From NCBI RefSeq assembly GCF_000472285.1, contig NZ_KI421413.1, positions 243,167-307,166 of the forward strand: a stretch of DNA of 64,000 bases. Reading direction: 5' to 3'. The first letter of the stretch is position 1; each line of letters starts with the position of its first letter. The notes below the pieces were generated by a model. It was not told the DNA's origin and ran no database searches. It saw only the letters and a program-made list of their open reading frames with translations. This document shows positions 16,110-23,497 of this stretch, in pieces. A program made the translations under genes and the position numbers. The DNA comes from Desulfuromonas sp. TF (GTDB taxonomy: Bacteria > Desulfobacterota > Desulfuromonadia > Desulfuromonadales > ATBO01).

Positions 16110-16409
16110 TCAGTCTTCTTCACCCTTGAACCACTTGTCAAACCAAGTGCGATGATCTTTCTCAGCAAGAATATGCAAATCATTCGGCCCGAGCCAGACC
16201 CCTCCGCAGGCGGGACATCTGTCCAATGGGACACCCCGAAAAGTCAAAGGCTCGATTGGCTCGCCGCACTTGGGACAGCGATTACGGCAACTTTCACGGA
16301 TTACCTGTTCCCGAGCGGCCGTCTTCATCTTCTCAAGTTTTTCCTTTTCCTGCTTGTAGATAAATTCATTCTCCAGGGCCTTCTTGCGTTTTTCCCAGAT
16401 ATCCGCCAT
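16110..16409 (-). CDS. Zinc-ribbon (TFIIB-type) small protein
   Basis: Soluble 99-residue protein. The first 50 residues are a charged helix (MADIWEKRKKALENEFIYKQEKEKLEKMK), possibly coiled coil; the second half is a TFIIB-like zinc ribbon with CPKCGEPI and CPACGGVWLG, the zf-TFIIB domain found in many small bacterial proteins. The function is not known. ATG at 16409 is preceded by AAGGAGGTGTT, a near-ideal ribosome site, so the upstream in-frame start at 16430 is rejected. Monocistronic. Confidence 0.82.
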   Translation of the reverse strand: MADIWEKRKKALENEFIYKQEKEKLEKMKTAAREQVIRESCRNRCPKCGEPIEPLTFRGVPLDRCPACGGVWLGPNDLHILAEKDHRTWFDKWFKGEED

Positions 16410-16482
16410 GTAACACCTCCTTGAAATCACTACCCTTTTTTAGTATAGCAATGGTCGGAGGCTTGGCAAGGAATTACCGTGA

Positions 16483-16516
16483 CGGGTTATCGGTAATCAG
16501 TTATCAGCTGCAAGCC
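16483..16516. repeat. Heptamer repeat 3' of the Cas6-like gene
   Basis: Tandem 7-mers ttatcgg, taatcag, ttatcag, ctgcaag. They use the same word as the larger array on the other side of the Cas6-like gene at 17490-17556. Confidence 0.55.
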
Positions 16517-16524
16517 GGACCTCA

Positions 16525-17484
16525 TCATCCCTCATCAGGGCATCGCAGCCGGTAACGCCCGGCCCCGAAGGCCGCGTTTTTCCCTATATTCAGCAGCGAT
16601 CCCATTTTCAGGATCCAGAATATTTCAGCCAGAGCGTCACCCTCAAGGCGAAGGAGGCCGCAGACTCCGCCCAGATCCTGATCCATTTTCTCTCCGGTCA
16701 AGGTTTTCCAGTCCTCCCAGCGCAGGTGATTCACCCGTGTTTCCACCTGTGCCGCGCTCCGCAACAGGGACTGCGCTTCCATGGTCATTTCCAGACCGCA
16801 ATGGTTATGCATCATGGACGTCACCCGCCGTAGAATGAACGGGAAAAGCTTGCCGAAGGAGGGACGGAAAAGCGGTTTCCCCTGGCTGAGAAGACGGGCA
16901 GGAGTAATGAATTCAAGGTCGATGCTGCTACCGCCCGGCTGATCTGATTCTGCCCACCAGCGGGCATTGCAGACAGACGGCGCCATATCTTTCAGGTTCT
17001 CGCCTTCACTCCAGATGCGGCTGCGGTTGCCGGCGGCATCTTCAGAGAAGACGGCCGCCAACTCGAACTGTCCTTCGCCGCGATGAAGCCCCAGACGCCC
17101 GAGGGCCCGAAGAGTCCGGGCAAAATCCCCGAGGGATTGGATCCCGGTGCCCCAGAAAGCAACTTGAAGTTCGAGGAGGTCCCCGGCCTCATACTCACCT
17201 GCGCCATCAGTTTCCGGCAATAGGGTGAAAGGCGCGCCGGGGCGCTGATGTCGGCGCAAGGCCACCGGATCTTCGGGAAGCGGAGGATCGAACAGGGAGG
17301 AAAAACGGCCGTAACCCTCTGCGGAGGTATTCGGGGACAGGACGAGGTGGGCGGCCTGCAGCAGGTCCCGCCGCAGACACAGCAGTACTTCCCTAGAGAC
17401 CCGAAAGGAGTCCTGAAATTCCAGTTGGAATCGGGTGAGGGCAAAGTCCACGCCCTGCAGTTCACGGGGAATGTCGGCGATCAT
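16525..17484 (-). CDS. Solitary Cas6-like RAMP endoribonuclease homologue
   Basis: The 319-residue protein resembles the CRISPR pre-crRNA-processing Cas6 family (PF10040 type). The C-terminal half follows the family pattern: LEFITPARLLSQGKPLFRPSF, FPFILRRV, LRWEDW, DLGGVCG, then the glycine-rich NIGKNAAFGAGRYRL at the extreme C-terminus. Where the family usually has LHVGK, this has LNIGK (about residues 298-302), so a histidine that is often conserved is Asn here. No CRISPR array or other cas gene is in the window. Heptamer repeats flank the gene on both sides. ATG at 17484 has no clear ribosome site, so the start is uncertain. It could be a domesticated RNA-binding or RNA-cleaving protein; that is inference. 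Confidence 0.8.
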   Translation of the reverse strand: MIADIPRELQGVDFALTRFQLEFQDSFRVSREVLLCLRRDLLQAAHLVLSPNTSAEGYGRFSSLFDPPLPEDPVALRRHQRPGAPFTLLPETDGAGEYEAGDLLELQVAFWGTGIQSLGDFARTLRALGRLGLHRGEGQFELAAVFSEDAAGNRSRIWSEGENLKDMAPSVCNARWWAESDQPGGSSIDLEFITPARLLSQGKPLFRPSFGKLFPFILRRVTSMMHNHCGLEMTMEAQSLLRSAAQVETRVNHLRWEDWKTLTGEKMDQDLGGVCGLLRLEGDALAEIFWILKMGSLLNIGKNAAFGAGRYRLRCPDEG

Positions 17485-17489
17485 ACAAG

Positions 17490-17556
17490 GACCGAGTTAT
17501 CAGTTATCAGTTATCAGCTGAAAACTGTAAGCTATAAGCTGAAAGCTGAAAGCTGC
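17490..17556. repeat. Heptamer repeat 5' of the Cas6-like gene
   Basis: Nine or so tandem 7-mers that drift in sequence: ttatcag three times, then ctgaaaa, ctgtaag, ctataag, ctgaaag, ctgaaag, ctgcaaa. The same words appear in the tgt-downstream array at 22556. The array ends directly at the frd operon terminator. Confidence 0.7.
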
Positions 17557-17589
17557 AAAAGGGCAGAGGATTGCTCCTCTGCCCTTTGC
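17555..17589 (-). terminator. Terminator of frdCAB
   Basis: Perfect 15-base stem GCAAAGGGCAGAGGA / TCCTCTGCCCTTTTGC with a four-base loop and a T-run on the minus strand, 42 bases after the frdB stop. Confidence 0.8.
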
Positions 17590-17630: not shown

Positions 17631-18373
17631 TTAGCCCTGGGGAAGGGCCTTGGCGAGCTCCCGATTCATCCGGGAGATGAAGGTGACCTTGATCCCTTTC
17701 GGGCAGGCGGCTTCGCACTCGTAGTGATTGGTGCAGTTGCCGAAGCCTTCCTTGTCCATCTGCTCAACCATGGCCTTGACACGGCGGGCCGCTTCGACTT
17801 CCCCCTGGGGGAGCAGGCCCAGGTGGGCAACCTTGGCTGCGGTAAAGAGCATCGCCGAAGCATTGGGACAGGCGGCGACACAGGCGCCGCAGCCGATGCA
17901 GGCGGCCGCATCCATGGACTTATCGGCCTTCACCTTGGAGACAGGGATGGCGTTGCCGTCGGGCACCCCGCCCGTATGGGCGGAGGTGAAGCCGTAGGTC
18001 TGAATGAGGCGGTCGAAGGCGCTGCGGTCGACCATCAGGTCCTTGATCAGCGGGAAAGCCTTGGCCCTCCAGGGCTCGATGAAAATGCTGTCGCCGTCTT
18101 TGAAGCGCCGCATGTGCAGCTGACAGACAGTGATCTCCTCCTCGGGGCCGTGAGCGACGCCGTTGATCATCTGCGAACACATCCCGCAGATCCCCTCGCG
18201 GCAGTCGTGGTCGAAGACGATCGGCTCCTTGCCGCTCTTGATCAGATTTTCATTGACCTCGTCGAGCATTTCAAGGAAGGACATGTCGGGGCTGACATTC
18301 TTCGCCTCGTACTGCTCCATCCTGCCCTTGTCCTTCGGGCTCTTTTGACGCCATACGTGTAATGTCAGGTTCA

Positions 18374-18374
<1 letters not shown>
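17631..18374 (-). CDS. frdB: Succinate dehydrogenase/fumarate reductase iron-sulfur subunit
   Basis: Electron-transfer subunit carrying [2Fe-2S], [4Fe-4S] and [3Fe-4S] centres between FrdA and the membrane cytochrome. The 247 residues show CREGICGMC with a distal cysteine for the plant-type centre, then [12 protein letters not shown] and [14 protein letters not shown] for the cubane and [3Fe-4S] sites. The frdB start codon overlaps the frdA stop by one base (18374), so translation is coupled. The epsilon-/deltaproteobacterial FrdCAB set can work as both fumarate reductase and succinate dehydrogenase in Geobacter; which direction applies here cannot be told. Confidence 0.95.
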
Positions 18375-20290
<1,916 letters not shown>

Positions 20291-20294
20291 AGTA

Positions 20295-20963
20295 TTAACC
20301 CCCTATGACGTTGAAAAAGATTAAGATGGGTGTGAAGAGGAACCCGATAGCCACCAAACCGGCGACCCAGCGGCCGCCCGTGGTCAGTTTGGGGAGGGTG
20401 GCGTCATTAGTCAGACCCAGGGACTGGAAGAAGCTCTGAATGCCATGGCGCAGATGAAGCAGCAGCACGATCATGGCGGCCACGTACACGACGGTGACGA
20501 CAAGGCCGTCAAAGCTCGTAGTCATCATCCGGAACACGTCGAAGCGGCCGATCTCGTCAGCCATCTGATTGAACTCGGGGTTAAAGGCGTGAATCGTGAA
20601 ATGCAGGAGGTGATATATGACAAAGACCCCCAGAATGACACCGGTCCAGATCATCGTCTCGGCCGAGAAGGTTGTGCGCTCGTTCTTCTTCATGGCGTAC
20701 TGCTCGGGCCGTGCCGACTTGTTTTCCAGGTAAAGAGTGATCCCCATCCAGATGTGCAGAATGAAAAACACCAGCATCGCTCCGCGGAAGGCCCACAGCA
20801 GCGGCGGGAAAGCCCGCAGATGCTCCGCATAGCTGTTTATCCCTTCGGCGCCGCCGAAGATCGACAGATTGCCCAGCATGTGAGCAACGACAAAGCCGAC
20901 CATTGCCAGCCCCGTGAGCCCCATGATGTACTTTTTACCTAATGACGTCTTGTACCATCGCAT
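20295..20963 (-). CDS. frdC: Succinate dehydrogenase/fumarate reductase cytochrome b subunit
   Basis: Single large membrane anchor of a type B complex, 222 residues with about five transmembrane helices. Several in-membrane histidines ([35 protein letters not shown]) are candidate haem ligands, consistent with a diheme cytochrome b558-like subunit that passes electrons to or from the quinone pool. First gene of frdCAB. About 480 bases separate it from the divergent tgt, so its regulation is likely encoded there. Confidence 0.93.
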
Positions 20964-21445
20964 GGCAACATCCCATCCCTGTGAAAGATTTATTGCCTAC
21001 CGGCAAAGGAACCGCAGGAAGTTTTAGCCTCCCTGTCCGAACGGACACCATCTCCCGTCAAGGAAAATGGCGGTCCGCGCCAACTGCTGAAAATATCCAT
21101 GCCAATCAACCTCCCGTTGAAGACTGCGAAATCTGCGACAATCTTCCTCTCATCCCCGGTCAAAAACCGTAACATGAATTCATGCAAATCCTGATTTAAG
21201 TAACATTCGATGCGTATACATGTCAACCGAAAACTGCACACTGTATACACATTTGAAACACCGTTACAGGATGAATTTATCCTTCCAGGACCTCCGGATT
21301 CATCTTAAAATATAGCCCTCCCCTTATAGTTTCAATAAAAAATCCCCTCAGTTGCTTTCAACGCCATTTTCTGTTAGTTTTGCGGCTGATTAACTCTTGT
21401 GAGAATCACCCATTTATTCTTCCGGTCCGGGAAAGTATACGAAAT
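20964..21445. promoter_or_regulatory. frdC-tgt divergent control region with paired GTATAC sites
   Basis: The 480-base gap shows no credible gene. GTATACA at 21214-21220 and TGTATAC at 21242-21248 are an inverted pair of the six-base palindrome GTATAC, 28 bases centre to centre, close to three helical turns. GntR/FadR-type regulators often bind GTATAC-containing palindromes, so this could be an operator for frdCAB, but that is inference. The stretch 21300-21370 is AT-rich. Confidence 0.35.
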
Positions 21446-22555
21446 ATGTTCACATTCGATTTGCTCGCCGTCGATCCATGCTCCGCCGCCCGTCGCGGAC
21501 GCGTAACCACGCCGCACGGGGTGATCGAGACCCCCATCTTCATGCCGGTCGGAACCCACGCTGCCCTCAAGGCCATGACTCCTGCCCAGGTGGAGGAAAC
21601 GGGGGCCCAGATCATCCTCTCCAACACCTACCACCTGCACCTCAAGCCCGGAGAGGGGCTGGTTCAGAAGGCCGGGGGGCTGCACCGGTTCATGAACTGG
21701 TCGAAGCCCATCCTGACCGACAGCGGCGGCTTCCAGGTCTTCTCCCTTCCCAAAAAGAAGATCACCGAGACGGGGGTCTACTTTCGCCATGAGGTCACCG
21801 GCGAAGAGATTTTTCTCGGCCCCAAGGAAGCCACCGGTATCCAGAACGCACTAGGCGCAGACATCATCATGGCCTTTGATGAGTGCATCCCCTATCCGGC
21901 CACCCATGAATACGCCGCGGCTTCCATCAAAAAGACTCTGCGCTGGGCCGAGCTCTGCCTGGCGAGCCAAAACCGGCCGGAGCAGGCCCTCTTCGGCATC
22001 GTTCAGGGGAGCGTCTATGAAGATCTGCGCAGGGAGTGCGCCCGGGAGCTGACCGCCATGGGCTTTCCCGGTTACGCCATCGGCGGGGTGAGCGTCGGCG
22101 AGGGGCTCGATCTGCTCAAGAAGGTGGTCGATTATACCGCCCCCTTTCTGCCGGAGGATAAACCGCGCTACCTCATGGGGGTGGGGCTGCCCGAGGACAT
22201 TCTGGAGAGCGTCCAGCGGGGAATGGACATGTTCGACTGCGTCATTCCCACCCGCTATGCCCGGAGCGCCACCCTGTTCACCAGTCGCGGCAAGATCCGC
22301 CTCACCCACCGCCGCTACCGCCGCGACTTCTTCCCTGTCGACGCCGCCTGCGACTGCTACTGCTGCCGGAACTTCACCCGCGCCTACCTGCACCACCTGT
22401 ACAACGCCAACGAGATCCTCTCGGCGACCCTGGCCGCCATTCACAACGTCCATTTCTATCTGGAGATGATGCAGGGCGCCCGGAAAGCCATCGAGCAGGG
22501 CGTGTTCGTGGATTTCAAGGAAGATTTTCTGGGACGGTACGGGAGCGAAACGTAG
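21446..22555 (+). CDS. tgt: tRNA-guanine transglycosylase
   Basis: Exchanges guanine-34 for preQ1 in tRNAs with GUN anticodons on the way to queuosine. The 369 residues from MFTFDLL include catalytic Asp92 in LTDSGGFQVFSL, DCVIPTR near residue 265, and the zinc site CDCYCCRNFTRAYLHH. The frame is open upstream to 21380, but the protein family starts at MFTFDLLA, so ATG 21446 is chosen. No queA, yajC or secDF neighbour is present; the gene stands alone, divergent from frdC. Confidence 0.96.
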   Translation: MFTFDLLAVDPCSAARRGRVTTPHGVIETPIFMPVGTHAALKAMTPAQVEETGAQIILSNTYHLHLKPGEGLVQKAGGLHRFMNWSKPILTDSGGFQVFSLPKKKITETGVYFRHEVTGEEIFLGPKEATGIQNALGADIIMAFDECIPYPATHEYAAASIKKTLRWAELCLASQNRPEQALFGIVQGSVYEDLRRECARELTAMGFPGYAIGGVSVGEGLDLLKKVVDYTAPFLPEDKPRYLMGVGLPEDILESVQRGMDMFDCVIPTRYARSATLFTSRGKIRLTHRRYRRDFFPVDAACDCYCCRNFTRAYLHHLYNANEILSATLAAIHNVHFYLEMMQGARKAIEQGVFVDFKEDFLGRYGSET

Positions 22556-22708
22556 CTATCAGCTGCAAGCTGCAAGCTGCAAGCTGCAAGCTGTCAGCTG
22601 TCAGCTGTAAGCTGTAAGCTGAACCTTTCGTGATTTTGGACTTTGGATTTACTTACAGCTTATAGCTTATAGCTGAACTTCTAGCTTGAAGCTGATAACT
22701 GACAGCTA
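22556..22708. repeat. AAGCTGC heptamer array with inverted half
   Basis: It begins right after the tgt stop and fills the whole gap to the next gene. The first half is eight or so tandem 7-mers: agctgca four times, agctgtc twice, agctgta twice. After a roughly 35-base spacer the second half carries the inverted words tacagct, tatagct, tatagct, tgaagct, gacagct. The halves can fold on each other into a long imperfect stem. Confidence 0.85.
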
Positions 22709-23497
22709 ATGAGCGAAGCGAATTCTACAGAGCGGCTTGATCCGGGTCTGGCCCGGCGGCTGCACGGGGCTCTTACCGCCGGCCCGGATGAGCTCTTTCA
22801 GCTGGTTCAGGACCCGTCTCACGAGGTCCTGCGGGCTCTGCTGAAGAATCCCCGGCTGGGGGAAGATCACCTTCTGTCCCTGCTCAAACGCCGCGATTTG
22901 TCCGAGGACCTGCTCAAAGCCGTCTTCCGCCTGGAAAAGGTCGACGCCAGCCACCGTCTCAAGGTCGCCCTGGTCTTCAATCCCGGCACCCCCGGAGCGG
23001 TGGTCCAGACCCTCCTCCCCCAGCTCTACCTCTTCGAGCTGGCCAATCTCTGCCATCTCCCCGGAGTCACCCCCGATCAGAAGGTCGCCGCCGAGCGGGT
23101 GATCATTCAGCGCCTCCCCACCACTGCTCTGGGGAACAAGCTCACCCTGGCGCGGCGGGGAACGGGCGCCGTGGTCGCTGAACTGTTCAAGGAAGGAGAT
23201 GCGCGGCTGATCGAGGCGTGCCTGCTCAATTCCAGACTCAAGGAGGCCGCCATTCTTCAGTTTCTAGGCAGCAGCCGAGCCACGGCGGAAACCATTTCCG
23301 CCGTCGCCCGCCACCCGAGATGGAAAAGCCGCCCCAATATCAGGCTCGCCATCCTCAAGACCCCCCACACTCCAGCGGTCTGGTTCACCCTCTTCCTCCC
23401 CGCTCTCCGGATCCCCGAGCTCAACAACCTTCTAACCTCCCGAAGGCTCACCCCCAGACAGAAGATGCTGGTGGAGGAGGAGCTGAAAAAGCGGTGA
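22709..23497 (+). CDS. Hypothetical alpha-helical protein
   Basis: Soluble 262-residue protein, not recognised. It is leucine- and alanine-rich with repeating amphipathic helices of about 30-35 residues (for example HEVLRALLKNPRLGEDHLLSLLKRRDLSEDLLKAVFRLEKV), which suggests a HEAT- or LRV-like solenoid. No catalytic motif, signal peptide or membrane segment was seen. The ATG at 22709 abuts the heptamer array and lacks a ribosome site, so a later start such as TTG 22738 is possible. Codon usage matches the neighbours. Solenoids of this type usually act in protein-protein contacts. Confidence 0.75.
   Translation: MSEANSTERLDPGLARRLHGALTAGPDELFQLVQDPSHEVLRALLKNPRLGEDHLLSLLKRRDLSEDLLKAVFRLEKVDASHRLKVALVFNPGTPGAVVQTLLPQLYLFELANLCHLPGVTPDQKVAAERVIIQRLPTTALGNKLTLARRGTGAVVAELFKEGDARLIEACLLNSRLKEAAILQFLGSSRATAETISAVARHPRWKSRPNIRLAILKTPHTPAVWFTLFLPALRIPELNNLLTSRRLTPRQKMLVEEELKKR

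Follow-up and report, generated by a model that had tools for sequence, protein, structure and literature searches.

The closest described relatives of the gene studied here belong to CRISPR systems. The type III Cas6 proteins of the same phylum (alignment A3) are in several cases encoded beside Cas10, Csx1 or Csm genes and in two cases near arrays. The closest fold is that of the Cas6 domain in the Marinomonas MMB-1 Cas6-RT-Cas1 protein (6dd5), which is fused to RT and Cas1 and belongs to a type III-B system. Solo-Cas genes are also already known, in the form of solo-Cas4 (PMC5704561). The gene analyzed here is a solitary cas6-like gene at 16525..17484 on the minus strand of the window, a 64,000-nt stretch of DNA from Desulfuromonas sp. 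TF. It has an ATG start, encodes a protein of 319 aa and is very probably a CRISPR-independent solo-Cas6.

The ORF is a true Cas6-fold protein. The PADLOC Cas6 model (PDLC01477) matches it over its full length (residues 13-314, E 6.9e-64) and also matches 65 of the 65 members of alignment A2, while a search of the protein against NCBIfam gave no match. An earlier note, made from the letters alone, held that the C-terminal half fits PF10040 end to end and named a profile search as the check, with an insignificant score as the outcome that would speak against it. That outcome did not occur; the score is 47.8 bits with a cut-off of 25 bits (E 2.5e-12), and the match runs over residues 190-311 and takes in profile positions 1-89 of 89, as had been described. 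The AlphaFold model, built from 65 sequences, has a pLDDT of 95.3 and a pTM of 0.92, and the predicted structure contains the two RRM-type domains of Cas6. Its best match in the PDB is the MMB-1 Cas6 (Z 20.6, rmsd 3.6 over 255 residues, 16% identity), followed by Streptococcus thermophilus Cas6 (Z 18.4), archaeal Cas6 (about 17; 16.9) and Thermus Cas6 (15-17). The top matches are Cas6 without exception, and the Cas6 fold covers nearly the whole protein in the alignment.

The gene has neither an array nor other cas genes near it. The genome of the window is 4.40 Mb and 100% complete by a tool estimate, and the cas6-like gene is its only PF10040 match. Genome-wide searches found no Cas1 and no type III RAMP (Cas7-III). 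The genome-wide search for Cas3 gave nothing above the cut-off and only helicases below it, in a test where all 14 control genomes also gave matches, 8 of these only below the cut-off. No CRISPR array was detected by the array finder in the 64 kb of the window or in any locus of the solitary clade; this search covered the window and the homologous loci, and the same script detects arrays beside the Cas1 loci of relatives. The rest of the genome was probed with one common repeat end, GTNGATTGAAAY, which matched at no more than three scattered places. The single PF10040 match, the lack of Cas1 and RAMP, the Cas3 matches below the cut-off and the array-free window confirm what the earlier note had observed, namely that the 64 kb contain no array and that the gene has no cas companions.

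Within the order, 53 of 58 genomes and 36 of 39 genera have a homologue, almost always as a single copy. The five genomes of the order that lack it all belong to one family (f4). No cas6-like gene was found in any genome searched from this family (G003, G023, G035, G044, G052, G098, G102, G153, G165 and G197). A profile search matched 175 of the 194 genomes of the class Desulfuromonadia, a count that is slightly too high for the solitary form since some of the Geobacterales matches are CRISPR-type copies (e.g. L158), and 114 of 297 genomes across the phylum. The gene occurs in 73 of 80 Cas1-positive and in 102 of 114 Cas1-negative genomes of the class (Fisher p 0.81). By this comparison, it lies outside of CRISPR loci and is independent of the presence of CRISPR. 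Some of the Cas1 matches lie within frames of 560-606 aa that are likely Cas1 fusions (G050:C67, G026:C8, G019:C1, G013:C1 and G084:C105). There are also short partial PF01867 matches in proteins of about 310 aa (G003, G004, G022, G024, G052 and others), which are possibly divergent type I-F-like Cas1.

Matches at the level of the phylum have a different company. Of their 10 neighbors that were checked, 8 are Cas10, Csx1/CARF or Csm-type proteins, and CRISPR arrays are present in two loci of CRISPR-type relatives (L174 and L175). Two genomes with type III genes were checked for their Cas6 copies. In G050, a separate CRISPR-type copy (L202) with Cas10 and Csx1 as neighbors exists in addition to the solitary gene. 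Three copies are present in G079, of which L203 and L204 are CRISPR-type, whereas L205 has a solitary-type sequence and follows ORFs with the lengths of sdhB and sdhA. The CRISPR-type copies of both genomes adjoin Cas10/Csx1 or Csm genes. Since each genome has its own separate CRISPR-type Cas6, the solitary protein is not a stand-in for a missing CRISPR Cas6 there.

The solitary gene has a conserved location. Upstream of it in the window and on the same minus strand are sdhC/frdC (20295..20963), sdhA/frdA (18374..20290) and sdhB/frdB (17631..18374), and tgt, which encodes queuine tRNA-ribosyltransferase, is the divergent neighbor on the plus strand (21380..22555, likely ATG near 21449). The ancestral upstream neighbor sdhB has Fer2_3 and Fer4 domains. 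The ORFs of sdhA and tgt were named from their sequence, and that of sdhC was named by its position and length; an ORF of similar length is likewise placed in Geobacterales loci. A perfect 13-bp inverted repeat followed by T's lies after sdhB (17558..17587, unstranded). This terminator-like repeat suggests that sdhCAB ends before the cas6-like gene, which makes co-transcription doubtful in the window. The conserved downstream neighbor encodes a TFIIB-type zinc ribbon (PF13453, E 5.1e-15) at 16110..16430 on the minus strand, with a likely ATG near 16409. A promoter-like sequence, TTGCCA-16-TATACT with TG, precedes the zinc-ribbon gene at 16469-16442 on the minus strand, and this gene may have its own promoter.

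The arrangement was compared across 71 loci, which comprise the window and 70 loci from named contigs, nearly all of them from Desulfuromonadales. The tgt gene is upstream and divergent in 60 of these, typically about 100 bp from the cas6-like gene, and the zinc-ribbon gene follows the cas6-like gene on its strand in 57. A sdhB gene within 150 bp upstream is found in 8, the window among them. Twenty Geobacterales loci were also fetched, with the order of the G genomes inferred from named relatives; sdhB is directly upstream in 10 and one ORF away in an eleventh. Most of these sdhB-bearing loci have the order sdhC-sdhA-sdhB-cas6-like with tgt divergent, which is the arrangement of the window. 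The sdhB-cas6-like junction is therefore common to the sister orders Desulfuromonadales and Geobacterales, and the simplest reading is a single ancestral tgt-sdhCAB-cas6-like locus that would have been inherited vertically in both. The zinc-ribbon gene is present in 46 of the 58 genomes of the order and in none of the five genomes without the cas6-like gene, which are one family (f4) and may represent one event.

Pairwise dN/dS values of the cas6-like gene are mostly 0.1-0.25; therefore, the protein is under purifying selection. The tree has three separate groups, which are the solitary Desulfuromonadales proteins, the solitary Geobacterales proteins and the CRISPR type III Cas6. It places two sequences that were first counted as Desulfuromonadales (L105 and L107) with the solitary Geobacterales proteins and L158 with the CRISPR type. 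The 19 CRISPR-type relatives have an invariant or nearly invariant N-terminal PxYKGST(L/F)RG, four cysteines, RYSxRQ, the PHPF His and the LHVGK His, the last of these in 19 of 19. These features are no longer conserved in the 70 solitary Desulfuromonadales proteins, in which the arginine of the RG motif is retained in 59. The LHVGK His position is occupied by N in 40 of the 70, G in 22, Q in 4 and H in 2. The earlier note had pointed to an Asn in place of this His, and the window protein does have Asn there (LLNIGKN) as part of a lineage-wide change.

Other positions are kept in all or nearly all of the 70 proteins, including the TPxR Arg, the Arg-Arg pair, WxDW, GG and GK...GxG; the set L040-L109 was found with RR-helix and G-loop patterns, which biases the conservation at these sites, and the independently found set A1 agrees. 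The 21 solitary Geobacterales proteins are intermediate, with the G-loop His in 13 and cysteines 2-4 in 14-19. The loss of the YKGST/RG motif, the four cysteines, RYSxRQ and the G-loop His in Desulfuromonadales suggests that the protein probably does not carry out crRNA maturation.

The catalytic histidine varies among Cas6 proteins, and we know of no experiment that establishes the catalytic residues of this branch. Residual or altered cleavage would be consistent with this variation and with the Geobacterales members, most of which keep the cysteines along with the 13 that keep the G-loop His. In another reading, the protein has been re-tasked without losing endoribonuclease activity and uses other residues to cleave a cellular RNA (an mRNA 5' region, a tRNA-like or a small RNA). 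The preserved Cas6 fold and G-loop, the strong purifying selection and the residues kept in most Geobacterales members speak for such an enzyme; however, no His column is invariant in the Desulfuromonadales proteins, where the best one, at the end of the RR helix, reaches 45 of 70 and the LHVGK position only 2 of 70. We therefore regard an active nuclease as possible but rather unlikely. Action in trans on arrays elsewhere in the genome, which the earlier note had also raised, is improbable and did not find support. Although Cas6 models are matched above their cut-offs and Cas1 is present in some carriers, 32 of the 35 Cas1-negative genomes of the order carry the gene and some Cas1-positive ones do not. 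The genome of the window also lacks Cas1, type III RAMP and any Cas3 above the cut-off, the repeat end has no more than its scattered matches, and the type III genomes that were checked have a Cas6 of their own. The loss of the CRISPR-type signature residues would fit the decay of a gene left behind by a lost CRISPR locus, but hardly any weight can be given to this in a gene that has intact ORFs, low dN/dS (about 0.1-0.25), clade-specific invariant residues and one locus conserved across the order and its sister order.

Just as little credence is given to the flanking heptamer repeat RNA as the ligand. As the earlier note stated, heptamer words are seen on both flanks of the gene in the window; the element on the sdhB side (17495..17555, unstranded) is taken to be incidental and has a fragmentary counterpart on the other flank at 16496-16510. 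The heptamers, (AGYTNNN)n, are a dispersed intergenic repeat family. They also follow tgt at 22559-22709 (22559-22622 and 22682-22709) and are scattered over the genome at about 20 sites, but none was found in 109 homologous loci (1.44 Mb), and the proposed heptamer stem is therefore rejected as a general rule. Near the locus, Rfam gave only sub-threshold microRNA matches, which are caused by the heptamers. Two other candidates were considered and rejected as RNA ligands. In many Desulfuromonadales, the cas6-like gene is preceded at a distance of 40-60 nt by a conserved element, CTAGACGTATAACAGAA-N12-GCGCAAT, that could have been part of a 5'-UTR. Most likely, this element serves the divergent tgt as its promoter, since similar elements stay with tgt where sdhCAB intervenes, as in the window and in Geobacterales; elsewhere it precedes the cas6-like gene because tgt is divergent there. 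The promoter-like element of tgt in the window (TTGC-N-TTCTGTTAG or TTGC...TTCTGTTA) is at 21351..21378 on the plus strand, is recognizable across two orders and is unusually well kept for a promoter. The other candidate, a possible small hairpin before the start codon, occurs in one subgroup only and is absent from the window and the other groups.

The reading that we favor, with some reservation, is an ancient solitary Cas6 paralogue that binds RNA and has a mechanism unrelated to crRNA. The common ancestor of Desulfuromonadales and Geobacterales probably already had the gene at the tgt-sdhCAB-cas6-like locus, and the gene would have been passed on vertically and independently of CRISPR. The two-RRM fold, as predicted, is retained in the protein, and so are the Arg-Arg helix, the G-rich loop GKxAxxGAG and the C-terminal WxDW/GGxxG hairpin. 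Since these parts are retained, it probably still binds RNA, although some of the conserved residues behind this assignment may be structural. The earlier suggestion of a domesticated RNA-binding protein fits well as far as domestication goes, given the class-wide vertical inheritance, the independence from CRISPR, the purifying selection and the lost signature residues, and its second half is a prediction from fold and residues. Its ligand is most likely a single cellular RNA or a small number of them, and the protein would act as a regulator, a chaperone or a much-altered processing factor, possibly with the adjacent zinc-ribbon protein as a partner. It is about an even call whether a single exaptation in the ancestor of Desulfuromonadia gave rise to a near-core RNA-binding factor that works without CRISPR on a defined RNA of the cell, possibly with a link to tgt/sdhCAB and with the zinc-ribbon protein as its partner.

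The class Desulfuromonadia, to which the Geobacter-type metal reducers belong, is well studied. Profile annotation, which for PADLOC and Pfam gave the label Cas6 here, would label this protein as Cas6 in about 90% of the genomes of the class, where it is actually a CRISPR-independent near-core gene. If the favored reading is correct, a crRNA-processing enzyme would here have taken on a role in cellular RNA biology, which is rarely seen in nature, and the gene would be a lineage-wide domesticated Cas6 that works with no CRISPR system. No account of a class-wide solo-Cas6 with vertical inheritance turned up in a search of the open-access full-text literature. The solo protein and the type III Cas6 of alignment A3 have in common the full-length PADLOC Cas6 match, the PF10040-type C-terminal domain, the RR helix, WxDW, GGxxG and the G-loop. 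Unlike the type III proteins, the solo clade lacks the YKGST/RG motif, the four cysteines, RYSxRQ and the LHVGK His, and it is found at a vertically inherited tgt/sdh locus and not in CRISPR loci. The solo protein also stands alone, in contrast to the MMB-1 Cas6 with its fusion partners. Compared with solo-Cas4, whose family is a DNA nuclease, the present case is a Cas6-fold RRM protein that is maintained class-wide at one locus.
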